From Brevibacterium epidermidis NBRC 14811 (lineage in GTDB: Bacteria > Actinomycetota > Actinomycetes > Actinomycetales > Brevibacteriaceae): a DNA stretch of 64,000 nt. The DNA is taken from contig NZ_BCSJ01000011.1 of the NCBI RefSeq assembly GCF_001570805.1, positions 186,001-250,000 on the forward strand, read 5' to 3'. Each line of letters opens with the position of its first letter. Within the stretch, counting starts at the first letter, position 1. Positions 45,975 to 60,068 of this stretch are shown one piece after another. The notes below the pieces were generated by a model. The model searched no databases and was not told where the DNA came from. It saw nothing but the letters and a program-made list of their open reading frames with translations. Position numbers and translations under genes: made by a program.

Positions 45975-46032
45975 CTGTACGGCGGTCTTCGCCGCCGTCG
46001 ATCGGCATAGAGTCCGATTCGTGACCGTCTGT

Positions 46033-46176
46033 GTAACGGTTCATAACGAAACAGTGATTCAGGACACCTGGATTATGGCGCCTGTAGTGATTCGTGATCA
46101 GTCATTTTCAGAGAATGGCCTGGTCACACGCCGTGTATGAACTGAAGGTGACATTCTGTAACGATGTCGTTATAGT
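46033..46176 (+). promoter_or_regulatory. M15 peptidase promoter with two TAACG repeat sites
   Basis: GTGACA (46148-46153), a 17-bp spacer and TATAGT (46171-46176) form the promoter. Inside and overlapping it is GTAACG-N4-CGTTAT (46158-46173), an inverted repeat. About 125 bp upstream is GTAACG-N4-ATAACG (46033-46048), the same half-sites as a direct repeat. The half-sites resemble those bound by the cell-wall response regulator MtrA, which controls peptidoglycan hydrolases in related bacteria; that assignment is inference. Confidence 0.5.
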
Positions 46177-46249
46177 GTTGTGACATAAGCTTTCGGGCGC
46201 CCGGCAGAGGGCTTCCACCGCACAACTTTCATCAACAGTATGGAGCACT

Positions 46250-47287
46250 ATGTCGAGTGAGCTCTCGACCGTCGAGGCGCCGCCGGTTCGCCGGCGTGAT
46301 CTGCGCAAGCAGAACGCCTCCTCGCAGGTTTCGACGATCAACTCTTCGCATCCCGTGACATCGCAGTCGCGGAGCAGCGCATCCGCAGCCCTCTCGCCCC
46401 GTCGTGCGGCCATGGCCGCCGAGGCCCGCGCCGCAGCGGGTTCACCTCGACGGGCAGCGATGGCCAAAGAGGCCGCTCGGCCGATGACCCCCGCAGGTCA
46501 TACGTCGACTCTGGCTGCAGCACAGCTCGGCAGCCGCGGTTCCGACGGCTCGCTTCTGCGTTCGGTCCGCCGCCGCCAGGTCACGACCTTCTCCGCTCTG
46601 GCCACCGTCTCGGTCACCGGCACCGCCATCGCCGCTGTGATGGTCGCCGGAAACATGAGCGGCAACCAGGAAGTCAAGGTCGATGACACCGCCGCGCAGT
46701 CCCAGCCGCGTGCGATCAACGCCGAATCGGTGTCTGCCGACATCAAGGTCGACGAAGACGACAAGACCTCTATGACCATCGGCGCCCCGAGCGCCAAGCA
46801 GACCAAGGTCGACGCGGCGTCGCGTGCGATCACGAAGACTGTTCTGCCCGGTTGTGACGAAGCCGCGCCGAAGGGCGACGCCAGCAACGGCGAACTGCCC
46901 GACGAATGGCTGTGCGAGATCGGTGTGGGCAATCACAAGCTGCGCTCCGATGCGGCCGTGTCATTCGCAAAGATGAACGCAGCCTTCAAAAAGGACACCG
47001 GGAAGGACCTTGCAGTCACCGACTCCTATCGGTCGCTGGACGCGCAGGTCTCCGTCGCCTCGCGCAAACCCGGCTTCGCGGCTCGCCCGGGAACCTCCAA
47101 CCACGGTTGGGGCCTCGCGCTGGACCTCGGTGCGGGAACGCAGAACGGAACCGGTGTGCAGTATGAGTGGCTCGTCGCCAACGCCGACAAGTTCGGGTGG
47201 GAGAACCCGGACTGGGCCAAGCGCAATTCCTATGAACTCTGGCACTGGGAATACGTGCCGGGCCGCAAGGCCATGAAGGGCGCCTGA
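46250..47287 (+). CDS. M15 family metallopeptidase (VanY-type D,D-carboxypeptidase)
   Basis: The 345-residue membrane-anchored cell-wall peptidase has a cytoplasmic basic N-terminus with an imperfect internal repeat (SPRRAAMAAEARAA and SPRRAAMAKEAARP), then a transmembrane segment (about 107-130, TFSALATVSVTGTAIAAVMVAG). An extracytoplasmic linker leads to the VanY domain (about 195-345). Zinc and catalytic motifs are YRSLDAQ, TSNHGWGLALDLG (His and Asp ligands) and ELWHWEYV (the C-terminal His). It trims D-Ala-D-Ala or peptide cross-links of peptidoglycan. A 67-nt leader separates the predicted start of transcription from the ATG; the Shine-Dalgarno is weak (GGAG). Confidence 0.88.
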   Translation: MSSELSTVEAPPVRRRDLRKQNASSQVSTINSSHPVTSQSRSSASAALSPRRAAMAAEARAAAGSPRRAAMAKEAARPMTPAGHTSTLAAAQLGSRGSDGSLLRSVRRRQVTTFSALATVSVTGTAIAAVMVAGNMSGNQEVKVDDTAAQSQPRAINAESVSADIKVDEDDKTSMTIGAPSAKQTKVDAASRAITKTVLPGCDEAAPKGDASNGELPDEWLCEIGVGNHKLRSDAAVSFAKMNAAFKKDTGKDLAVTDSYRSLDAQVSVASRKPGFAARPGTSNHGWGLALDLGAGTQNGTGVQYEWLVANADKFGWENPDWAKRNSYELWHWEYVPGRKAMKGA

Positions 47288-47317
47288 TCTGGTCGAACAC
47301 CGCTGATCACAGCCTCA

Positions 47318-47361
47318 CGAAACCGCGTGCAATCCTTCGGGACTGCACGCGGTTTCGTTTT
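47318..47361 (+). terminator. intrinsic terminator after M15 peptidase gene
   Basis: A 14-bp stem (CGAAACCGCGTGCA and complement) with a 12-nt loop is followed by TTTT, a standard intrinsic terminator. Confidence 0.85.
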
Positions 47362-47399
47362 GGGAGCTGGTGCCCAACGGTGATAGAGTTGCATCCGTT

Positions 47400-47475
47400 G
47401 CCCGCGTAGCTCAGTGGATAGAGCGTCTGCCTCCGGAGCAGAAGGTCGTAGGTTCGAATCCTGTCGCGGGCACCA
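47400..47475 (+). tRNA. tRNA-Arg (CCG)
   Basis: The 76-nt cloverleaf has acceptor GCCCGCG/CGCGGGC, D loop AGTGGATA, anticodon CCG in loop CTCCGGA, T loop TTCGAAT and encoded 3' CCA. It reads the CGG codon. Confidence 0.96.
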
Positions 47476-47597
47476 CAACACCGCCCATCTCAACTGCTGA
47501 GGTGGGCGGTTCTGCATTCGCGGCCCGAGTGGTCGGCGATGCAGACAGCACCTAAGGTAGTCGGAGACGAGACCCGAACCGTGATTTGAGGCATGCG

Positions 47598-48368
47598 ATG
47601 TCGGAACCTGCTGATGAGCCCGTCCGGACGAGCACGGACGACGATATCGTCCTCCGCGCGCAGAGCCTGCGCAAGAGCTTCGGCCGCGGTGATACGGCGG
47701 TCGATGCCCTCGACGACATCAGCGTCGACTTCGAATCGGGTCGCTTCACAGCCATCATGGGACCCTCCGGCTCCGGGAAGTCCACATTCATGCATGTGCT
47801 CGCCGGACTCGATCGCGTCGATTCGGGCTCGATCATCATGCGCGGTCAGGACATCACCCGCCTCAACGACCGGCAGCTGACCCAGCTGCGACGAGACCGC
47901 GTCGGCTTCATCTTCCAAGCCTTCAACCTCGTCCCGACGCTGAGCGCCGAACAGAACATCGAACTGCCGGTGTCGCTGGCCAGGAAGAAGATCGACCGAG
48001 AGTGGAAGGCCGAAGTCGTCGAACGACTCGAACTCGGCGACCGTCTCCAGCACCGCCCGCACGAGCTCTCCGGCGGTCAGCAGCAGAGAGTCGCCGTAGC
48101 CCGGGCCCTGCTCACCCGACCGGATGTCATCTTCGCCGATGAGCCCACGGGAAACCTCGACTCCCACGCCGGCGCAGAGGTCCTTTCCCTGCTCGGTCGG
48201 GCCACGACCCTGTACGGACAGACCATCATCATGGTCACTCACGACCCCGTCGCGGCATCGCACGCCGGACGGGTCGTCCTCCTCAAGGACGGGCGCGCCA
48301 CGGGCGAAGTCCGTCAGCCGACCCGAGAGAGCGTGGTCACCGCACTGAGCGAACTGAGCTCTCTGTGA
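47598..48368 (+). CDS. ABC transporter ATP-binding protein (MacB/LolD type)
   Basis: The 256-residue ATPase shows Walker A GPSGSGKST, Q-loop FIFQAFNLVPTLSA, signature LSGGQQQRVAVARALL and Walker B VIFADEPTGNLD followed by the H-loop MVTHD. This is the subfamily that drives FtsX-type permeases in lipoprotein, peptide or antibiotic export. An in-frame TTG lies at 47586; the ATG at 47598 is preferred. Its stop overlaps the permease GTG (GTGA), giving a two-gene transporter operon. Confidence 0.93.
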   Translation: MSEPADEPVRTSTDDDIVLRAQSLRKSFGRGDTAVDALDDISVDFESGRFTAIMGPSGSGKSTFMHVLAGLDRVDSGSIIMRGQDITRLNDRQLTQLRRDRVGFIFQAFNLVPTLSAEQNIELPVSLARKKIDREWKAEVVERLELGDRLQHRPHELSGGQQQRVAVARALLTRPDVIFADEPTGNLDSHAGAEVLSLLGRATTLYGQTIIMVTHDPVAASHAGRVVLLKDGRATGEVRQPTRESVVTALSELSSL

Positions 48369-50914
48369 TCGCAGTCGCCCTCGCGCAGATTCGGATCCAC
48401 TGGGCCCGGTTCCTCGCAATCGGCCTCGGTATCGCATTGGCGGCGGGATTCGTCGCGACCACACTGATCATCAACTCCTCACTGCAGGACAGCCTCGAAC
48501 ATGCCGTCGGTCGTTCGTTCGAGAAGTCCGACCTCACCGTCATGCCGAGCAGAGATGTCTTCGTCGGGGGAGACGAGGCCTCCCCGCTGCTGGGACCCTT
48601 AGCCGAGGTCGACGGGGTGGAGACTGCGTCTCTGTCGGCCCGCACGGTATCCACTGGCCGAGGAGCAACATTCTCCGAGAGCTCATTCGCGCTGTCTCCG
48701 GTGCCTGCCGATGAACGGCTCGACACGTTCGACATGGTCTCCGGCCAGCGGCCGGAAGCGAAGACCGACCTCGTCCTCGACACCCGCACAGCAAAGGATC
48801 TCAATGTCGGAGTCGGTGATGAGATCCGCTTCACCGTCGACGCCGTTCCGGTGGAGAGCGGGAACGATGACATGCCCATCTACCGGGGCCCGAGCCAGAG
48901 CAGCGTCGCCTTCTCCGTCGTCGGCATCGCGGAGATGGGACAGGACCCGGCGATGCCCGGAGCCACTCGGGCCCTGACGACGGCCTCGGGCTATCAGGAG
49001 TACTTCGCCCAACAGGGGGACGTCATCGCCATCCAGATCGCCCTCGAGGACGGTGCGGACCCTGAGGCGGTGCGCGCTCAGCTGCAGAGGGTCATCGACG
49101 GTTCGGAGCTGAATGGCAGCCTCGAAGCACTCACGGTGGACGAAGCTGTGAGTGCGAAGACCGATCGCCTCTCCGGCGGCAACGCCGTCGTGACCGGGCT
49201 GCTGCTCGTGTTCGCCGGAATCTCCGTCATCGTCGCCATCCTCGTCGTATCCAACACCTTCTCCGTGATCGTCGCCGGGCGTCGTCGCGAATTCGCACTG
49301 CTGCGCTGCCTCGGCGCCACCCGCGTGCAGATGTACGGCTCCGTCGTGGCCGAAGGACTCTTCGTCGGATTGCTCGGGTCGATCTTCGGCGTCTTCGCAG
49401 GTGTCCTCGTCAGCCGTGGACTCATGGCCGCAGCCGTGCGCTACTGGCCGGAGGAATTCCCCTACGACACGCTCACCGTGCCCGTCTCCGCCCTGGTCAG
49501 CGGGGTCGTCGTTGGTGCGCTGCTGACGATCGTGGCCACTATCCGTCCGGCTCGCAGCGCCATCGCAGTGACCCCGCTCGAAGCACTCCAGCCGTTCGAC
49601 GCCTCCATCTCACCGAACACTCGCGCCCGGCCCCGCCACCTCGTGGGCTTCGGCTTCATCGGCCTTGGCATCGTCCTCGTCGTCGTCTCCGTCTATGCGG
49701 TGTCGACCTCGCAGCTGTGGATCCTCGGCGGAGCGTTGGGAGGAGGGCTCGTGGTCACGGGACTGGTCATCAGCTCGGCGAAGATCATCCCGCCCGTCGT
49801 CGCGTGGATCGGGGAAGTGCTGTTCAGCCCCTGGGGCGTACCCGGACAGTTGGCGACCCTGAACACCCTCCGCAATCCGCGCCGCACCGCGGCCACCGCC
49901 ACGGCGCTGATCATCGGTGTGACCCTGGTGGCGACGATCCTCGTCGGCGGAATGTCGACGAAGGCGACGCTCAGCCACGGGCTCGACCAGCGCTATCCCG
50001 TCGACATCTCCGTACCGCTGTCTGGCCTCGTCGACGATGACGACCTCGAGGATGTGCGTCAGATCCCCGGAGTGTCCGCCGCGGTCATCGCCCACCGCGC
50101 CGAGGCGGTCGAGGACTTCAAGGGCTCCCGTCCCGAGATCTTCGTCATCGACCCCGACAGTGCCGAGGCCGTGCTCGGTGACGCCGCCGCCGATATCGTG
50201 TCCGGTCGAGTCACCGTTCCCGAGGACTATCGTGATCCGACCGTGCGGGTGAAAGGGCTCAACGAGATGAGCGTGCCCGTGCACAAGGACGGACTCTCCA
50301 GCCTCGCCTTCTTCACCACCCCCGATGTCGGCAACGACCTCGGCATCTCGGCAACGACGACGGCCGTGCTCGTCCGTCTCGATGAGGACATCGAGGTCGA
50401 CGAGATCACACGCATCCGCCAGTCCGTGGCAGAGACACTCGACGTCTCCAGCGAGGAGGTCGGCGGTTCGGCTGTCGCCCGCGGCGCCTATTCCGAACTC
50501 ATCGACGTCATGCTCGCCGGGGCCGTAGCCCTCCTCTTCGTCTCCGTGATCATCGCGCTCATCGGCGTCTCGAACACGGTCAGCCTCTCCGTCATCGAAC
50601 GTCGGAGGGAGAACGCACTCATGCGCGCGCTGGGACTGAGCATCTCGCAGCTGCGGACCCTGCTGGCGCTCGAGGCGGTGCTCATCTCATCGGTGGCCGC
50701 ACTGCTCGGACTCGTCCTCGGCGGTGCCCTGGGCATCGTCGGCACACGGCTGGTCACGTACGACTATTCCACCGATCTCATCGTCGACTTCTCCGCGCCG
50801 TCTTTCCTCGGCATCCTCGCAGTGGCGGTCATCGCCGGGATCCTCTCCGCACTGGCACCGGCCCGGCGCGCGTCTCGGCTCTCACCCGTCGAAGGACTCA
50901 AACTCGACTTCTGA
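48365..50914 (+). CDS. ABC transporter permease, duplicated FtsX-like
   Basis: The 849-residue permease has two FtsX/MacB halves: an N-terminal transmembrane helix (about 15-37), an extracytoplasmic domain, a three-helix FtsX core (about 275-400; LLLVFAGISVIVAILVVSNTF), a second soluble domain, and a second FtsX core at the C-terminus (about 715-849; IIALIGVSNTVSLSVIERRRE). Two central helices connect them. Such proteins work mechanically with the preceding ATPase to export or extract substrates. No two-component system or resistance gene adjoins, so the substrate is unknown. Confidence 0.92.
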   Translation: MIAVALAQIRIHWARFLAIGLGIALAAGFVATTLIINSSLQDSLEHAVGRSFEKSDLTVMPSRDVFVGGDEASPLLGPLAEVDGVETASLSARTVSTGRGATFSESSFALSPVPADERLDTFDMVSGQRPEAKTDLVLDTRTAKDLNVGVGDEIRFTVDAVPVESGNDDMPIYRGPSQSSVAFSVVGIAEMGQDPAMPGATRALTTASGYQEYFAQQGDVIAIQIALEDGADPEAVRAQLQRVIDGSELNGSLEALTVDEAVSAKTDRLSGGNAVVTGLLLVFAGISVIVAILVVSNTFSVIVAGRRREFALLRCLGATRVQMYGSVVAEGLFVGLLGSIFGVFAGVLVSRGLMAAAVRYWPEEFPYDTLTVPVSALVSGVVVGALLTIVATIRPARSAIAVTPLEALQPFDASISPNTRARPRHLVGFGFIGLGIVLVVVSVYAVSTSQLWILGGALGGGLVVTGLVISSAKIIPPVVAWIGEVLFSPWGVPGQLATLNTLRNPRRTAATATALIIGVTLVATILVGGMSTKATLSHGLDQRYPVDISVPLSGLVDDDDLEDVRQIPGVSAAVIAHRAEAVEDFKGSRPEIFVIDPDSAEAVLGDAAADIVSGRVTVPEDYRDPTVRVKGLNEMSVPVHKDGLSSLAFFTTPDVGNDLGISATTTAVLVRLDEDIEVDEITRIRQSVAETLDVSSEEVGGSAVARGAYSELIDVMLAGAVALLFVSVIIALIGVSNTVSLSVIERRRENALMRALGLSISQLRTLLALEAVLISSVAALLGLVLGGALGIVGTRLVTYDYSTDLIVDFSAPSFLGILAVAVIAGILSALAPARRASRLSPVEGLKLDF

Positions 50915-50963
50915 TGTGCCCCGGCCGTCTGGCCGGAGGTGGGCGTCTGATAGGAAAGAGCTC

Positions 50964-52139
50964 ATGACTTCCGCGCGCATCCGCATTCTGATCATCCTCG
51001 GAATCGTCGTCGCCGCATTCAATCTGCGGCCCGGAGTCACCGGTCTCTCACCGCTGCTCGACGCCATGGGCGAAGAGATCCGGTTGAGCGCGACGTTCCT
51101 GGCGATCATCGGCATGCTGCCGCCGCTGCTCTACGGCCTCAGCGGCTTCATCACCCCGCGCCTCTACGCCCGCTTCTCCGGACTCGGACTGACCCTGGCC
51201 GCGATGGTCATGGTCACGATCGGGCTGGGAGTTCGGGCGGTCATCGATTCTCCGTGGATCTTCCTCGCTCTCAGCGTGCTCGCCCTGCTGGGGATGGGCA
51301 TCGGCAACGTGGTCCTCCCGCCTCTGGTGAAGTCGTATTTCCCCGACAAGGTGGCGCTCATGTCGACCGTGCACGTCGGGCTGCTCCAATTCGGCACCTT
51401 CATCCCGCCGCTGGTCGCAGTGCCCCTCGCCTCAGATTTCGGGTGGCGTGGGTCCCTGCTCGTATGGGCCGGATTCGCAGCTCTGGGTGTTCTCGCCTGG
51501 ATCGTCATCCGCATCGTCAGGCCCGCACCCGCCGCCGAGGTGGCCGCCGCAGTGGTCGGCGGAAGCGAGCTTTCTCGCCTGCTGCGCAGCCCACGGGCCT
51601 GGGCGCTGATGACGATGACGGGACTGACGTCGTTCAACAACTTCATCCTCTTCACCTGGCTGCCGAGCCTGCTCACCCGCTCCGGATTCGATGCGGCCTT
51701 CGGTGGTGCGATGCTCGCACTGGTCACGGCCATTCCGCTCGTTCTCGGGTTCGTCCTGCCCACCCTGGCACAGAAGATGACTTCGGCCTATCTCATCGTC
51801 GTCGGCTTCTGCATCAGCCTGGCCGTTGGGTATCTGGGTCTGTGGCTGGTGCCGACGGCGGCTCCCGTCCTGTGGACCGTGCTGCTGGGCATCGGCATCT
51901 CCACCTTCCCGCTGGCACTGACGCTGATCACCCTTCGCGCACGCGATGCGAAGGGAGCAGCCGCGCTGTCCGGCTTCGTCCAGGGCGGCGGCTACCTCCT
52001 GGCGGCCACAGGACCGCTGATCTTCGCGTTCCTCATCCAGAGCTTCGACAGCATGTGGCCGGCATTCGCCGTGGTGCTCGCCTCGGTTGTCGTCAAATTC
52101 TTCGTCAGCCACGCAGCGTGTCGGCCCGGTGCGATCTGA
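50964..52139 (+). CDS. MFS transporter, CynX/NimT-like
   Basis: The 391-residue twelve-helix permease begins with the CynX-type signature AAFNLRPGVTGLSPLLDAMGEE in its first helix, as in cyanate and nitroimidazole-related transporters. Hydrophobic segments are regularly spaced, and the central loop (RPAPAAEVAAAVVGG) divides two six-helix halves. TAGGAAAGAG lies just before the ATG. Substrate and direction of transport cannot be deduced. It follows the ABC operon after a 49-bp gap. Confidence 0.87.
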   Translation: MTSARIRILIILGIVVAAFNLRPGVTGLSPLLDAMGEEIRLSATFLAIIGMLPPLLYGLSGFITPRLYARFSGLGLTLAAMVMVTIGLGVRAVIDSPWIFLALSVLALLGMGIGNVVLPPLVKSYFPDKVALMSTVHVGLLQFGTFIPPLVAVPLASDFGWRGSLLVWAGFAALGVLAWIVIRIVRPAPAAEVAAAVVGGSELSRLLRSPRAWALMTMTGLTSFNNFILFTWLPSLLTRSGFDAAFGGAMLALVTAIPLVLGFVLPTLAQKMTSAYLIVVGFCISLAVGYLGLWLVPTAAPVLWTVLLGIGISTFPLALTLITLRARDAKGAAALSGFVQGGGYLLAATGPLIFAFLIQSFDSMWPAFAVVLASVVVKFFVSHAACRPGAI

Positions 52140-52211
52140 GGCCCAGTGGGCATCCGTCTCGTCATGAGAGCGAAGATGACACCGGATTCGTCCTCGCAGT
52201 CCGGCCCCGAG

Positions 52212-52217
52212 TACTCT
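52212..52217 (+). promoter_or_regulatory. -10 element TACTCT for leaderless lysine/threonine operon transcript
   Basis: TACTCT, then 6 nt (GTTCGA), then the GTG at 52224, putting transcript start and translation start at the same base. It probably drives the argS remnant-lysA-hom-thrC-thrB operon. Confidence 0.6.
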
Positions 52218-52223
52218 GTTCGA

Positions 52224-53048
52224 GTGACCCCGGAAGACCTGCAGACTGCACTCGCGCGCGCCTTGGCGACGGCCGATGCCGGTCTTGTGGCACCGGAATT
52301 CGCCGCGCAGATCGATGTTCTCGCTCCGACTCGTCCCGAACTCGGTGACTGGACGACACCCGTGGCGCTGCGCGCCGCCGCTTCACCCACGAAGAGAACC
52401 GAACTTGCCGCACATCTGTGCACCGAGCTGCGCACCTTCCCCGAGGTGGCCGACGCCGTCATCGCCGGACCCGGGTTCGTCAACGTGACCCTGACTCCGG
52501 CCGGCAGGGCGCACGTCATCTGCGACATCGTCACCGCCGAGGAGACTGACGCAGGTGGGGGAGCAGGACCGGACCCGACGCCGTTGCGTGCGCTGCTCTC
52601 CGGTTCCGACCAAGAGTCGGTCCAGGCGCCGCTCGTTTATGGAACCGATGTGCACATCGATCCGGTCTCCGTGGACGCCCTCCAACGCGGTCATGCCGCC
52701 GCCTGCCGTGAACAGCGGCGGGCACACCGAGCGGGAATCCAGACGGAGGGAGTCGATATTGCGAGACTCGGACACCCGATCGAGGCTCGGATGCTCAACG
52801 CCGTGGCGGGACTGCCGTCGGCACTGGAACGCTCGCGCCGCCTCGGCGAGGCCGATCCCTTCCTCACAGCGCTTGTCGAACTCGGGGATTCCGTCGAAAA
52901 CTGGATCCGCCGATGCCCGGTCACTCCGACGGTCGATGAGGACATCACCGTCACCCATACCTCCAGGCTCCTTGCTCTGAGAGCCGTCATCATCGTCCTC
53001 GCCGCAGGACTACGACAATTGGGCGCTTCGGCCCCGGAGAGGATCTGA
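52224..53048 (+). CDS. ArgRS-derived protein lacking the catalytic core (N-terminal plus DALR domains)
   Basis: The 274-residue protein sits in the position occupied by argS upstream of lysA in related actinobacteria. Residues 1-102 match the ArgRS additional N-terminal domain, ending GPGFVNVTLTPAGRAH. Residues about 150-274 match the ArgRS DALR anticodon-binding domain (VDALQRGHAA, GHPIEARMLNAVAGLP, ending LRQLGASAPERI as ArgRS does). The roughly 300-residue Rossmann core with the HIGH and KMSKS-type motifs is gone, replaced by a Gly/Asp/Pro linker. It cannot aminoacylate, so another argS must exist. The reading frame is intact and the stop overlaps the lysA ATG (TGATG). Upstream ATGs at 52164 and 52176 are possible starts, but GTG 52224 fits ArgRS and the leaderless promoter. 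Confidence 0.82.
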   Translation: MTPEDLQTALARALATADAGLVAPEFAAQIDVLAPTRPELGDWTTPVALRAAASPTKRTELAAHLCTELRTFPEVADAVIAGPGFVNVTLTPAGRAHVICDIVTAEETDAGGGAGPDPTPLRALLSGSDQESVQAPLVYGTDVHIDPVSVDALQRGHAAACREQRRAHRAGIQTEGVDIARLGHPIEARMLNAVAGLPSALERSRRLGEADPFLTALVELGDSVENWIRRCPVTPTVDEDITVTHTSRLLALRAVIIVLAAGLRQLGASAPERI

Positions 53049-54487
53049 TGCCCGCACATATCGCAGGGACTCTGCACGCGACACCGGCCCCGGTGTGGCT
53101 GCCCTATCCCGATGACGTCAACGCGCTGCTGCCGAGCCTGTGGTCGGACAATGTCATGAAAAATTCCGACGGCGTGCTCACGATCGCCGGTCATCCCGTG
53201 ACGGAGCTGGCCGAACAGTACGGCACTCCCACTCTCGTCATGGACGTCGATGACTTCCGCAGTCGCGCCGAGACCTACCTGAGCACGTTCTCCAATGCGT
53301 TCTCCGTCGAGAAGGGGCTGGCCGGAGCCGACGTCTTCTACGCTGGGAAGGCCTTCCTGTGCACGGCCGTGGCCCGCTGGGTCCACGATGCCGGCCTCGG
53401 TCTCGACACATGCTCCTTGGGGGAGATGATGATCGCCCGCGCCGCCGGGGTCCCCGGCGACCGCGTCGGGCTGCACGGAAACAACAAATCCGCGGCAGAA
53501 CTCGAATACGCCCTCGACTATGGGGTGTCCAGGATCTTCGTCGACAGCCTCGACGAGGTCGCACGCCTGGAATCCATCGCCGCGGCCAGAGGGACAGTCG
53601 CACCGGTCATGCTGCGCGTGACCGTCGGAGTCGAAGCGCACACCCACGACTTCATCGCCACCGCCCACGAAGATCAGAAGTTCGGGCTCTCCCTGGCCGA
53701 CGGCACCGCGGCCGCGGCCGCTCGTCTCGTTGCGGAATCCGAACATCTGCGCCTCGACGGTCTCCACTCGCACATCGGTTCGCAGATCTTCGACATCTCC
53801 GGCTTCCAGGTCGCCGCAGCCCGCGTGCTCGCCTTCCGTGCCGAGATCATGGGCGAACACGGCATCGATCTTCCCGATGTCGACCTCGGCGGCGGTTTCG
53901 GCATCCGCTACACCTCCCAGGACACACCGATCCCGGTCGCCGAGATGGCCGAGGAGCTCGCGTCCGTCGTGGCCAAGGAATGCCGCGGGCTGGGCACGAG
54001 CGTCCCCCGGATCTCCATCGAACCCGGTCGCGCCATCGTCTCCCCGGCGGTATTCACACTCTACGAAGTCGGCACCGTCAAGCAGGTGAGCACGGACAGC
54101 GGACCACGCACCTATGTCGCCGTCGACGGAGGCATGAGCGACAACATCCGCACCGCTCTCTACGACGCGGACTATTCGTGCACTCTGGCCAACCGGAACT
54201 CCAGCGCCGAGCCCGCAATCGTTCGGGTCGTCGGCAAACACTGCGAATCCGGAGACATCATCGTCCGTGATGAGTACATGGGCGCCGACGTCACCGCGGG
54301 CGACCTCGTCGCTGTCCCCACCACCGGAGCGTACTGCCGGTCGCTGTCCAACAACTACAACCACCTGCCCCGGCCGGGCGTGCTCGCTGTCGAGGCCGAT
54401 AGAGTTGAGTGGATCGTGACACCCGAGGACCACACGCAGATGTTCGCCACCGACCCGGGCATGGCCGGGGGAGGAGAGCCGAACTGA
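53048..54487 (+). CDS. lysA: diaminopimelate decarboxylase
   Basis: The 479-residue PLP fold-type III enzyme converts meso-diaminopimelate to lysine. The PLP lysine is in DVFYAGKAFLC. The DAP/PLP site includes GLHSHIGSQIFD, VDLGGGFGIRY and ISIEPGRAIV, and the dimer-partner Cys/Tyr region is GKHCESGDI and TTGAYCRSL. The length is slightly above the usual 440-460 because of the N-terminal extension. The ATG overlaps the argS-remnant stop by one base, so lysA translation depends on ribosomes finishing that gene. Confidence 0.96.
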   Translation: MPAHIAGTLHATPAPVWLPYPDDVNALLPSLWSDNVMKNSDGVLTIAGHPVTELAEQYGTPTLVMDVDDFRSRAETYLSTFSNAFSVEKGLAGADVFYAGKAFLCTAVARWVHDAGLGLDTCSLGEMMIARAAGVPGDRVGLHGNNKSAAELEYALDYGVSRIFVDSLDEVARLESIAAARGTVAPVMLRVTVGVEAHTHDFIATAHEDQKFGLSLADGTAAAAARLVAESEHLRLDGLHSHIGSQIFDISGFQVAAARVLAFRAEIMGEHGIDLPDVDLGGGFGIRYTSQDTPIPVAEMAEELASVVAKECRGLGTSVPRISIEPGRAIVSPAVFTLYEVGTVKQVSTDSGPRTYVAVDGGMSDNIRTALYDADYSCTLANRNSSAEPAIVRVVGKHCESGDIIVRDEYMGADVTAGDLVAVPTTGAYCRSLSNNYNHLPRPGVLAVEADRVEWIVTPEDHTQMFATDPGMAGGGEPN

Positions 54488-54521
54488 TGAGCGTGAGAGA
54501 TAAGAGCGGAAAGGTGAGGAA

Positions 54522-55829
54522 ATGCAGGCACTGAAGGTTGCCATGCTCGGATGCGGAGTCGTCGGCACGGAAGTCGCCGCCCGCATTCAGAACCGTGCAG
54601 AAGGCCTGGCCGAACGCATCGGCGCTCCGCTGGAGCTGAGCGCCATCGTCGTCCGCGATGCCTCGAAGGCCCGTCCGGGAATCGATGAGAAGCTGCTCAC
54701 GACCGACGCCGAGGCGGCCATCGCCGGAGCCGATATCGTCGTCGAGCTGATGGGCGGGATCGAACCCGCCCGCTCGCTCATCACCGCGGCGCTGCGCCAG
54801 GGATCATCCGTCGTGACCGCGAACAAAGCGCTGCTGGCCGCCAGCTACGGCGAACTCATGTCCGCGGCCGATGCCGCCGGTGTGCGCCTCGAGCACGAAG
54901 CTGCAGTGGCCGGTGCGATTCCGATCATCCGCCCCGTCGGCGATTCGCTGGCCGGTGACCGGATCGAGCGCATCATGGGCATCGTCAACGGAACGACGAA
55001 CTATATCCTCGACCAGATGGACTCTGAGGGCTGGGACTTCCAGCAGGCCCTCACCGCCGCTCAGGAACTCGGATACGCAGAGGCTGATCCGACCGCTGAC
55101 ATCGGCGGACACGATGCGGCGGCCAAAGCCGCGATCCTCTCGTCTCTCGCTTTCCACGCTCCCGTATCGATCGACGACGTCCACGTCGAAGGCATCGAAG
55201 GCATCACCGCCGAGATGGTCGAGACCGCCCGAGACCAGGGCTTCGTCATCAAACTCCTGGCCGTGTGCGAACGCGTCGCCTCATCGCCTGCAGGCGCCGG
55301 ACTCTCGGCGCGCGTGTACCCGGCGCTGCTCGACAGGAACCACGCGCTGTCATCCGTTCGCGGTGCCTTCAACGCCGTATTCATCGAAGCCGAAGCCGCC
55401 GGTGAGCTGATGTTCTACGGTCAGGGAGCCGGGGGAGCCCCGACTGCCTCCGCAGTCCTTGGAGACCTCGTCTCAGTGGCCAGACGCAAGGTGCTCGGTG
55501 GACGCGGACAGTACGAACGTCCCTTCCACGAGGACTACCCGATCCTGCCGATCTCGGCGATCACGACCAGGTATCACATCACCCTCGACGTGGTCGACCG
55601 TCCCGGCGTGCTCGCCGCGGTCTCCGAGGTCTTCGCCGACGAAGGAGCTTCCATCGAACTCATGCGACAGACGATCGGGGACATCGACGACGAGGGCATC
55701 CAGCATGCGAAGCTCGTGCTGGCCACCCACTCGAATACCGACTCGACTCTGCAGAAGACCGTTGATCGACTCATCGATCTGCCTGTCGTCCACACCGTCA
55801 AATCCGTGATCCGCGTAGAAGGACAGTGA
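54522..55829 (+). CDS. hom: homoserine dehydrogenase
   Basis: The 435-residue enzyme reduces aspartate semialdehyde to homoserine. The NAD(P) site is [14 protein letters not shown]; the catalytic region includes [23 protein letters not shown] and [22 protein letters not shown]-terminal ACT domain (about 350-430, [20 protein letters not shown]) gives threonine feedback control. GGTGAGGA precedes the ATG, and only 34 bp separate it from lysA. The thrC start lies within 4 bp of the hom stop. Confidence 0.96.
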
Positions 55830-55831
55830 CA

Positions 55832-56917
55832 ATGAACTACCCCAGACACCAGTGGCAGGGCGTCATCGAGGAATACCGCAGCCTCCTCGACATCTCCGCT
55901 GACACTCCCGCAGTCACCCTCGGAGAGGGCGGGACCCCGTTGATCAAGGCGGAGAAGCTCAGTGCGCGCACCGGTGCCCAGGTGTGGGTGAAGTACGAGG
56001 GCCTCAACCCGACCGCGTCTTTCAAGGACCGCGGCATGACGATGGCGATCACGAAAGCCGTGGCCCACGGCGCCAAAGCCGTCATCTGCGCCTCGACGGG
56101 CAACACCTCAGCCTCTGCCGCTGCGTATGCCACGAAGGCCGGTCTGACCTGTGCGGTGCTCGTGCCCTCCGGCAAGATTGCGCCGGGGAAGATGAGCCAG
56201 GCCATCGCCCACGGGGCGACCCTGCTCGAAGTCGACGGAAACTTCGACGACTGTCTGACGCTGTGCCGCAAACTCTCCGAGTCCTACCCGGTCCACCTCG
56301 TCAATTCGGTCAACCCCGATCGAATCGAAGGCCAGAAGACCGCATCCTTCGAGATCGTCGACGTCCTCGGTGATGCCCCCGACATCCATGTTCTGCCCGT
56401 CGGCAATGCCGGCAACATCACGGCGTACTGGAAGGGCTACAACGAATACCGCGAACACGGGATCTCCAAGAAGCTGCCGCAGATGTGGGGCTTCCAGGCC
56501 GCCGGAGCCGCACCGCTGGTGCTCGGCCATCCGGTCGACGAACCGGATACGGTGGCGACCGCCATCCGCATCGGCAACCCCGCCAGCTGGACGCAGGCCG
56601 AGACGGCGCGTGACGACTCCGGCGGCATCATCGATTCGGTCACCGACGACGAGATCCTCGCCGCCCACAAGATCCTCTCCAGCGAAGAGGGCATCTTCGT
56701 CGAGCCCGGTTCGGCCGCCTCGGTGGCGGGACTGCTGAAGATGGCCGACGCAGGCCGTGTCCCGGCTGGTGCGACCATCGCGGTCACCGTGACCGGTCAC
56801 GGACTCAAGGACCCGAGCTGGGCCCTGCACACCGCAGACGGGTCCGATATCGAAACCAAGCGCGTCTCCGTCGACGCCGTCAGCGCCGCACGTGCGCTGG
56901 GACTCGAGGACAGCTGA
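55832..56917 (+). CDS. thrC: threonine synthase
   Basis: The 361-residue PLP enzyme converts O-phosphohomoserine to threonine. The PLP lysine is in [29 protein letters not shown] binds the cofactor phosphate and [16 protein letters not shown] is typical of the short ThrC class. AAGGA lies 8 nt before the ATG at 55832; a GTG two codons upstream (55826) overlapping the hom stop is an alternative start. Confidence 0.95.
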
Positions 56918-56919
56918 GC

Positions 56920-57822
56920 GTGCGCGTCCGACTCGAGGTCCCGGCCACCTCGGCGAATCTGGGCCCCGGCTACGACTCGTACGGGTTGGCACTCGACATC
57001 GTCGACACCCTGACCCTCACCGTCCACGACGCAGCGGTCGATCCTGACCGCTGCGTCGAGGTGACGGGGGAGAGTGCCGATGTGCTGCCCCGGGACCGCT
57101 CGCACCTGATCATGCGGATCATCGGGGAAGTGCTCGAATCGGAGTTCCCCGACGTCGCTGCCGATCTGAGTCCGCGACTGTCGCTCGAGTGCGTCAACCG
57201 GATTCCCCATTCCCGCGGAATGGGTTCGTCGGCAGCCGCTGTCGTGGCCGGAATCGGACTCGCAGCGGAACTCGGAGCCTGGTCGACCGGAGCGGAGCTG
57301 AGCCGCGATCGGATCCTCGAGATCGCCACCGCTGTCGAAGGGCACCCGGACAATGCCGCGCCCGCGATCTTCGGCGGACTCACCGTCTCCCTGTCCGCGC
57401 CCGTGAAGTCATGGCAGGTGCCAGTGCGCACCCTCGAGACGGTCACGGTTCTCGTGCCCTCCTTCCGCCTCGACACCGAGGTCGCCCGTGGGCTCATCCC
57501 CGCGGGCATCGATCATGCGATCGCGGCAGACAACTCGGCACGGGCCGGCCTGCTCGTCCACGGGTTGAGCAACGACGCGCAGGTGCTGTTCGAGGCTACC
57601 CGCGATCAGCTCCATCAGGAGTTCCGTCGCAGCGCCTATCCGGACTCGATGGCGCTCGTCGACTCACTGCGCGCCGAGGGTCTCCCAGCCGTCATCTCCG
57701 GAGCCGGACCGACGGTCCTCGTCCTCGCCGAGGATGTGCCCGAAACCCTTGTGCCTGCAGGCTTCGTCGCACAGCGGACCGCGATTGACCTCGGCGGTTA
57801 TCGGGTGAGCCGAGAAAATTGA
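56920..57822 (+). CDS. thrB: homoserine kinase
   Basis: The 300-residue GHMP kinase phosphorylates homoserine for ThrC. Motif 1 is VPATSANLGPGYDSYGLAL, the ATP loop is IPHSRGMGSSAAAVVAG and motif 3 is AVISGAGPTVLVLA. It starts at GTG 2 nt after the thrC stop and completes the hom-thrC-thrB module. Confidence 0.95.
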   Translation: MRVRLEVPATSANLGPGYDSYGLALDIVDTLTLTVHDAAVDPDRCVEVTGESADVLPRDRSHLIMRIIGEVLESEFPDVAADLSPRLSLECVNRIPHSRGMGSSAAAVVAGIGLAAELGAWSTGAELSRDRILEIATAVEGHPDNAAPAIFGGLTVSLSAPVKSWQVPVRTLETVTVLVPSFRLDTEVARGLIPAGIDHAIAADNSARAGLLVHGLSNDAQVLFEATRDQLHQEFRRSAYPDSMALVDSLRAEGLPAVISGAGPTVLVLAEDVPETLVPAGFVAQRTAIDLGGYRVSREN

Positions 57823-57854
57823 GAAAACGATTCGCCAGATCGGCTCCGAACAAG

Positions 57855-57860
57855 TAGACT
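57855..57860 (+). promoter_or_regulatory. putative -10 element of rho promoter
   Basis: TAGACT lies 33 bp after thrB, with a weak -35-like TTCGCC 18 bp upstream. A transcript from here would have a leader of about 180 nt before rho. Confidence 0.45.
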
Positions 57861-57914
57861 GTGGGTGTTCCGACAGGGCACGGCTTCCCGCTGTTCTTCA
57901 CAGGTCCGTCGCCG

Positions 57915-57953
57915 ATGTCATACATTCTGGAACATCTCCTGCTCATTCTTTAG
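57915..57953 (+). CDS. possible 12-aa leader peptide upstream of rho
   Basis: ATG...TAG encodes MSYILEHLLLIL, with five leucines in twelve residues. The stop codon lies inside the right arm of a terminator-like hairpin (57938-57965), the geometry of transcription-attenuation leaders. No clear Shine-Dalgarno precedes it, so translation is unproven. Confidence 0.25.
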   Translation: MSYILEHLLLIL

Positions 57954-57965
57954 CAGGTTTTCTTT
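57938..57965 (+). terminator. terminator-like hairpin in rho leader (attenuator candidate)
   Basis: CCTGCT, an 8-nt loop and AGCAGG are followed by TTTTCTTT. It lies between the presumed promoter and the rho start, so it could cause premature termination and contribute to rho autoregulation. Confidence 0.5.
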
Positions 57966-58046
57966 CACAACGCACCGTCAATGGTGTTTCCGTCGCCGTG
58001 AGCAAACGGCACATGCCGCACGGCCGAAAGAGGGAGAAGGACCTTC

Positions 58047-60068
<2,022 letters not shown>

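Follow-up and report, generated by a model that had tools for sequence, protein, structure and literature searches.

Among the described systems closest to the subject of this study, an argS-derived gene without a catalytic core that precedes lysA in Brevibacterium epidermidis NBRC 14811, are the vertebrate protein DALRD3, the Drosophila protein SLIMP, the argS-lysA gene pair of Corynebacterium, in which argS is full-length, and the named protein family NrtL. DALRD3 contains a DALR domain, lacks a synthetase core, and binds particular arginine tRNAs, and its authors discuss a possible descent from an arginyl-tRNA synthetase (ArgRS) that lost catalysis (PMC7237682). SLIMP is described as a synthetase paralogue that lost charging and kept binding of the cognate tRNA (PMC9437257). 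In Corynebacterium, argS and lysA have the same order; argS is reported to be arginine-induced and lysine-repressed (Oguiza 1993, as cited in PMC7923171), so that a connection of lysine synthesis with arginine-tRNA is conceivable, but no more, and no transcriptional regulation of the argS-lysA operon was known in 2009 (PMC2744654). The window analyzed here is a stretch of 64,000 nt of contig NZ_BCSJ01000011.1. In this window, and repeatedly in other actinobacteria, genome comparisons show, at the level of sequence, that the native argS was displaced and its core deleted, and that the remaining domains were kept by selection.

The core-less argS open reading frame (ORF) occupies positions 52224..53048 (GTG start, TGA stop; this and all features below are on the plus strand) and encodes a protein of 274 aa with the C-terminus LGASAPERI. 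Its only Pfam domains, Arg_tRNA_synt_N and DALR_1, both score above the gathering scores: the ArgRS N-terminal (tRNA D-loop-binding) domain at 52236..52493 (PF03485, 38.0 bits, residues 5–90) and, at 52692..53045, the anticodon-binding DALR domain, which is complete and runs through to the C-terminus (PF05746, 34.1 bits, residues 157–274). There was no match to the catalytic core (PF00750) in the 274-aa protein, and with 34.3 bits the protein fails the curated cut-off of 261.65 bits of the arginyl-tRNA synthetase model TIGR00456. A linker with the approximate limits 52542..52673 stands in place of the deleted HIGH...KMSKS core. An in-frame start is also available at 52146, within a longer open frame around the ORF, but all 57 Brevibacterium loci compared conserve the GTG at 52224.

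These 57 genomes, B. epidermidis NBRC 14811 included, are in one of two states. In 38 of them (B. casei CIP 102111 and Brevibacterium sp. UCMA 11754 are examples), lysA is preceded by a core-less ORF; these genomes have a second DALR place and a strongly recognized core with a PF00750 score of 346 bits or more, and this second, E. coli-like ArgRS sits away from lysA. A single DALR place and a full native ArgRS at lysA (PF00750 below 70 bits) are found in the other 19, including B. album DSM 18261 and B. yomogidense DSM 24850; no E. coli-like ArgRS was found in these 19 genomes. The HIGH-type motif (H.GH) was present in 19/19 native and 0/38 core-less proteins, and the SKR-type (KMSKS-type) loop, searched with a strict pattern, in 15/19 and 0/38, respectively. 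A weak match (3–10 bits) to the end of the core, around model positions 262–309, precedes the DALR domain in 10 of the 38 core-less proteins. A profile built from 30 of the 38 core-less sequences matched 11 distinct sequences of solved structures at E ≤ 0.01, every one an ArgRS; the best match (E 5e-21) was to E. coli ArgRS (5yym/5b63) and covered two stretches, the N domain and the DALR domain. Since the core-less ORF is carried by 38 genomes, one per species, the loss of the core is neither an assembly error nor an oddity of one strain.

In B. epidermidis NBRC 14811, the genome contains two PF05746 places only, the core-less ORF and, on a different contig, a protein of 579 aa with all three ArgRS domains (TIGR00456 474.9 bits, PF00750 347 bits). 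The native actinobacterial type of ArgRS scores below 100 bits or below threshold with PF00750, whereas the E. coli-like type is recognized strongly. We call this strong type E. coli-like because E. coli matches at E 1e-30 while Corynebacterium glutamicum does not (10 of 14 control genomes match); the label also leans on motifs. This second ArgRS presumably took over the charging of tRNA-Arg. In the lysA tree, the 38 core-less species form one clade (support 100/100) and the 19 native species another (100/98), and in the tree of the foreign ArgRS, which took in 12 of the 38, the Brevibacterium sequences group in a single clade with a branch length of 0.52 (100/100). The simplest reading is one acquisition and one core loss, retained in all 38 descendants. 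The preliminary description of the window had proposed a frame with the ArgRS N-terminal and DALR domains and without the HIGH/KMSKS core, an argS remodelled in situ, and charging by a second argS. Pfam and the motif counts agree on the first point; the second is borne out because a full native argS occupies the same spot in 19 congeners; and the complete 579-aa enzyme is a good candidate for the third.

Selection was analyzed with a codon model in 18 near species. The ratio of nonsynonymous to synonymous substitution rates (dN/dS, omega) was 0.303 for the whole core-less gene, 0.306 for the N domain, 0.236 for the DALR domain, and 0.835 for the nearly unconstrained linker (27 codons), compared with 0.043 for lysA. 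Omega = 1 was rejected for the whole gene, the N domain and the DALR domain (2ΔlnL of 414, 152, and 283, respectively) and hardly for the 27 codons of the linker (6.1), with kappa fixed at 2.0 in the null model (1.8–2.9 in free fits). The codon positions give the same picture: in the domains, the difference at third positions is 0.38–0.39, about twice that at first and second positions (0.18–0.22), while in the linker the values are 0.51 and 0.42. Pairwise dN/dS of the window gene against its eight nearest relatives was 0.29–0.44 (lysA: 0.05–0.12). Judged by these values, the core-less protein is constrained yet fast-evolving. The preliminary description had argued from the intact frame against simple decay, and the dN/dS comparison across Brevibacterium that has now been run supports that argument in both domains.

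To cover a wider range, genomes of the order (129) and of the class (148) were sampled, and 61 genomes outside of Brevibacterium were found to contain a strong-type ArgRS. Their lysA loci were typed with models from the 19 native Brevibacterium proteins; in these genomes, core-less genes were sought only beside lysA. In 17 of the 61 genomes, a full native-type gene is still present at lysA. Three genomes, all of family f101, which we take to be Frankia, have the N and DALR domains with scraps of the core, most of which is gone. Core-less genes at lysA were found in 28 genomes, of families f21 (10), f100 (9), f13 (6), and f17 (3); only the DALR part was recognized in four of the six f13 and three of the nine f100 loci, and the f17 assignments are weak, G214 having been placed on an N match of 30 bits and the remaining two on weak matches of a broad model. 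Family f21 is called Streptomyces-like by its NrtL score. One lysA locus ends at a contig boundary and is unclassifiable. Omega was 0.173 in f21 (9 of the 10 genomes), 0.114 in f13 (4 of the 6), and 0.146 and 0.468 in two f100 trios, the second of which has a frame that probably includes sequence beyond the gene. In G214, the two strong-type ArgRS at C2:9077-10108 and C4:5609-6640 have equal scores, i.e., a duplication or an assembly copy.

How closely is core loss linked to the foreign ArgRS? Within the genus the two states and the ArgRS types correspond in 57/57 genomes, yet this is a single event. Outside of the genus the link is partly built in, because the lysA loci were chosen mainly for the presence of the strong type. 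In an unconditioned check of genomes outside of the genus with at least two DALR places, the strong type was present in 13/13 (order) and 32/34 (class); this count pools genomes that have two full genes with core-less genomes, includes G214 in both samples, and overlooks diverged core-less genes (a core-less gene was found in G536, G568, and G577, each of which has one place). G534 and G566, which have two DALR places and no strong-type core at E 1e-30, may be exceptions, or may reflect a second full copy or contamination; in G566 the second place, a DALR domain with a full score, belongs to a frame of 191 aa close to the start of a contig. A scan independent of the foreign ArgRS revealed a core-less gene in a metagenome-assembled genome (MAG) of the Pseudonocardiales (L372) as well, and the sole PF00750 match of this genome is a strong-type ArgRS, as the rule predicts. 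In the f101 sample, most of the core was lost in three of four genomes with the strong type, and the gene was full in six of six without it. In Streptacidiphilus jiangxiensis, both full ArgRS types are present.

A tree of the N and DALR domains (40 rows; f13, f17, and f100 were left out) requires at least six changes of the core-less label, and six are also obtained from the well-supported branches alone. Separate losses are placed in Brevibacterium, in the Streptomyces-like group, in the Pseudonocardiales and, among full-length genes, three times in f101. A single origin of all core-less genes as one NrtL family was tried and rejected, being present in 0% of 200 bootstrap trees, and regain of the core would not be a realistic alternative to repeated loss. 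A stage of dead catalysis before the loss of the core was also considered, as the full native-type ArgRS of G562 has TLAS at the HIGH position; it was rejected because TLAS is also present in six relatives of the same family whose sole detected ArgRS is of the native type. The f101 native-type enzymes have NPTGPVTLAS(A/T)RW at the HIGH site, with both histidines gone, in 6/6 genomes without another detected ArgRS as well as in G562 (L320-L325 and L293 together), so that in f101 a class I synthetase apparently works without HIGH.

The E. coli enzyme holds A20 of tRNA-Arg with F36, Q40, A78, and N84, and this base stacks on F82 (PMC8975779). In the alignment to 5b63/5yym, A81, F85, and N87 of the window protein align with E. 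coli A78, F82, and N84, and in the 38 core-less proteins these pocket residues are F in 38, N in 33, and A in 29 (S or T in the other nine). E. coli F36 and Q40 are unmatched in the window protein; the native Brevibacterium enzymes lack them as well, with H at the first site and A or S at the second. The genome has 47 tRNA places, 38 of which were typed, the remaining nine being 82–89 nt long and thus of class II size; the four typed tRNA-Arg genes (CCG, TCT, ACG, and CCT) all have A20 by our numbering. By analogy with DALRD3, we infer that the core-less domains still bind tRNA-Arg, and a role as a tRNA-Arg-binding regulator, one of the functions suggested in the preliminary description, would fit.

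Taken together, we consider it fairly probable that the N and DALR domains, kept by selection after the native argS was displaced by an E. coli-like ArgRS and its core deleted, serve as a non-catalytic tRNA-Arg-binding protein. Several observations weigh against this. The protein evolves fast, with an omega about seven times that of lysA, and distant pairs have higher dN/dS, with medians of 0.66–0.70 where the dS of lysA is 0.6–1.5, which reflects saturation or relaxed constraint. At lysA, 12 of the 61 foreign-ArgRS genomes have no recognizable argS relic (8/8 in f11, 1/1 in f10, 2/8 in f13, and 1/4 in f17), so the core-less gene is dispensable in some families. The GPGF.N pocket motif is absent from the six f13 and three f17 core-less proteins and is complete in none of the nine of f100, and the N domain was not recognized by the native-derived model in four of six f13 and three of nine f100 proteins. 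D-loop binding is therefore no common property of the core-less proteins, and those of f13, f17, and f100 may have another function or bind tRNA via the anticodon alone.

The fast evolution, the pairwise values of up to about 0.7, and the unrecognizable relics would also be expected of a decaying remnant whose frame is protected only by polarity on lysA, and in one Streptomyces-like genome (G257, L263) the core-less gene is broken over two frames, by a frameshift or a sequencing error. Decay is nevertheless very improbable in our view, as both domains are present in 38/38 descendants of one event and omega is below 1 in all five groups tested (in the domains in Brevibacterium, in whole frames in the other four). 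The lost pocket motifs agree as well with a protein-protein role, in which the domains would have lost tRNA binding and form a complex with LysA or the foreign ArgRS: the DALR half and the C-terminus are kept where the N-terminal motif is gone, and lysA is a constant neighbor both within the genus and at the core-less loci outside of it, which were searched only there. The foreign ArgRS, however, has N and DALR domains of its own, and the 12 genomes without a relic manage without such a partner; we regard this role as decidedly unlikely.

The expression signals of the core-less gene bear on a further alternative. A −10 element of a leaderless promoter, TACTCT (52212..52217), lies 6 nt upstream of the GTG, and TAnnnT is found 4–9 nt upstream of this GTG in 57/57 Brevibacterium loci, compared with 0.8% of background positions. 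At the other end, the TGA stop and the ATG of lysA (diaminopimelate decarboxylase, 53048..54487) overlap by one base (TGATG), a configuration present in 34 of the 38 core-less loci, with stop and start abutting in the other four; only 7 of the 19 native argS genes share one base with lysA. The last sense codons contain GAGAGG (53037..53042), by genus comparison the likely ribosome-binding site of lysA, in 38/38 core-less and 3/19 native loci. As both counts exceed those of the native loci, coupling of argS and lysA looks tighter in the core-less clade. The native argS or the core-less ORF precedes lysA in all 57 loci, at distances of up to 56 nt, and hom, presumably encoding homoserine dehydrogenase (54522..55829), has a match in 56, the remaining locus stopping at a contig edge. 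The leaderless start, the TGATG overlap, and the conserved argS-lysA-hom order had all been pointed out in the preliminary description, and the genus comparison extends them to these loci.

It is this arrangement that would be explained if the ORF acted in cis alone, carrying a promoter and delivering ribosomes to lysA while the protein is inert, as had also been suggested: the promoter is present in every locus, and the stop overlaps or abuts lysA and GAGAGG is present in every core-less locus. An inert protein is, on the other side, difficult to reconcile with amino acid constraint that acts on both domains but scarcely on the linker, with an ORF that remains 245–396 aa long across the genus and has not shrunk to a mini-ORF, and with family f100. 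There, the core-less stop lies 93–195 nt upstream of the inferred lysA start in eight of nine loci and 1012 nt upstream in the ninth, and omega is below 1 in both trios, the six genomes of which have stops 117–195 nt before lysA. Because the domains are constrained and the linker hardly is, and because the constrained f100 gene ends so far from lysA, ribosome delivery as the sole function is disfavored, and we consider it unlikely. A conserved C-terminus due solely to the ribosome-binding site of lysA was likewise weakened as an explanation, because all nine f100 proteins end in P.(R/K)(L/I), four of them in APTRL, although lysA is 93–195 nt away in eight. Altogether, recurrence and constraint seem to favor a function of the protein over decay and over a purely cis role, and a cis role for lysA may exist on top of it.

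The surroundings of the gene hold further features. A tRNA-Arg(CCG) gene (47400..47475) lies 4.7 kb upstream of the core-less ORF; it was found near argS-lysA in 8/18 native Brevibacterium loci, 1/9 core-less loci, and 9/10 loci of other families, scanned over only a few kb upstream. It looks like an old neighbor of argS-lysA, from which it is separated in the window by a large ORF, which we take to be ABC-permease-like, and a major facilitator superfamily (MFS) transporter gene. This transporter (50964–52139), presumably CynX/NimT-like, ends 85 nt upstream of the core-less gene and has a match in 37/37 other core-less loci and 0/19 native-argS loci. A second MFS transporter, 30% identical (L001 218-1501, minus strand), overlaps the end of the foreign argS in the same genome, with matches in 27/30 Brevibacterium foreign-argS loci, counted regardless of position within the locus, and in 0/19 foreign-argS loci of other families, which are too short to judge. 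A link of export or immunity between the MFS transporter and ArgRS is conceivable. No riboswitch or T-box upstream of the core-less gene was found in the region 46000–60000; apart from the tRNA, a single match was detected there, with a score far short of its gathering score.

The following course of events would account for these observations. The ORF is an argS of the native actinobacterial type that still occupies its ancestral site in the order tRNA-Arg(CCG) ... argS-lysA-hom. As the comparisons show, the ancestor of the 38-species Brevibacterium clade gained an E. coli-like ArgRS at another locus, to which, judging from its sequence, charging would have passed. The core of the native gene was then deleted in frame, and the N and DALR domains were held under selection. 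The core-less product would grip tRNA-Arg at both the D-loop and the anticodon stem-loop and leave it uncharged, possibly as an accessory, buffering, or targeting factor. It is predicted to be expressed from a leaderless transcript, and with a likely lysA ribosome-binding site in its last codons, translation of lysA is probably coupled to it. That a displaced ArgRS repeatedly becomes a tRNA-Arg sensor reporting the arginine-tRNA status to the coupled lysine/threonine operon is a doubtful extension of this reading; if true, bacteria would have a novel class of tRNA-binding regulators that arose by convergence. In either case, the 61 foreign-ArgRS genomes amount to a replayed evolutionary experiment, a natural series from the full gene to no relic, in which one can ask what use the tRNA-binding half of a synthetase has after charging is lost and why it stays with lysA. 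Compared with the preliminary description, the additions are that the second ArgRS is foreign in type, that the loss of the core accompanies it, and that the same event recurs in other families.

In comparison with the known systems, the argS of Corynebacterium is, unlike the core-less ORF, the essential synthetase (PMC7923171). SLIMP differs from the window protein in being derived from seryl-tRNA synthetase and mitochondrial, and a deletion of its core is not among the features described, as the available portion of the source has it (PMC9437257). DALRD3 shares with the window protein the DALR domain and the missing core, and we take its descent to be separate; its N-terminal part has no recognizable domain and it targets the METTL2 methyltransferase (PMC7237682), a kind of partner that the window protein is not known to have. 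A counterpart in architecture is NrtL (NF045898, "ArgS-related anticodon-binding protein NrtL"), which, like the window protein, has the ArgRS N-terminal and anticodon-binding parts and no core, an architecture derived here from the name of the model, its length, and its matches, with the window protein matched in two stretches. NF045898 provides a name and a model; no paper on NrtL or on a core-less bacterial ArgRS was found among the matches listed from an open-access library, judged by title and start of abstract (subscription papers lay outside the scope), and the phrase 'ArgS-related anticodon-binding' is absent from the open-access literature searched. The cut-off of NF045898 (340 bits) was passed in six of eight Streptomyces-like genomes, in which family the core-less gene precedes lysA in 10/10 genomes; presumably, many Streptomyces annotations bear the name NrtL, for which the same search of open-access papers yielded no published function. 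The window protein, with 88.5 bits, fails the cut-off, and a native full Brevibacterium ArgRS scores 243. The tree assigns separate core losses to the Brevibacterium and the Streptomyces-like genes and thus argues against common core-less descent. NrtL is already a named family, below the cut-off of which the window protein falls, and its name appears to cover several independent origins.

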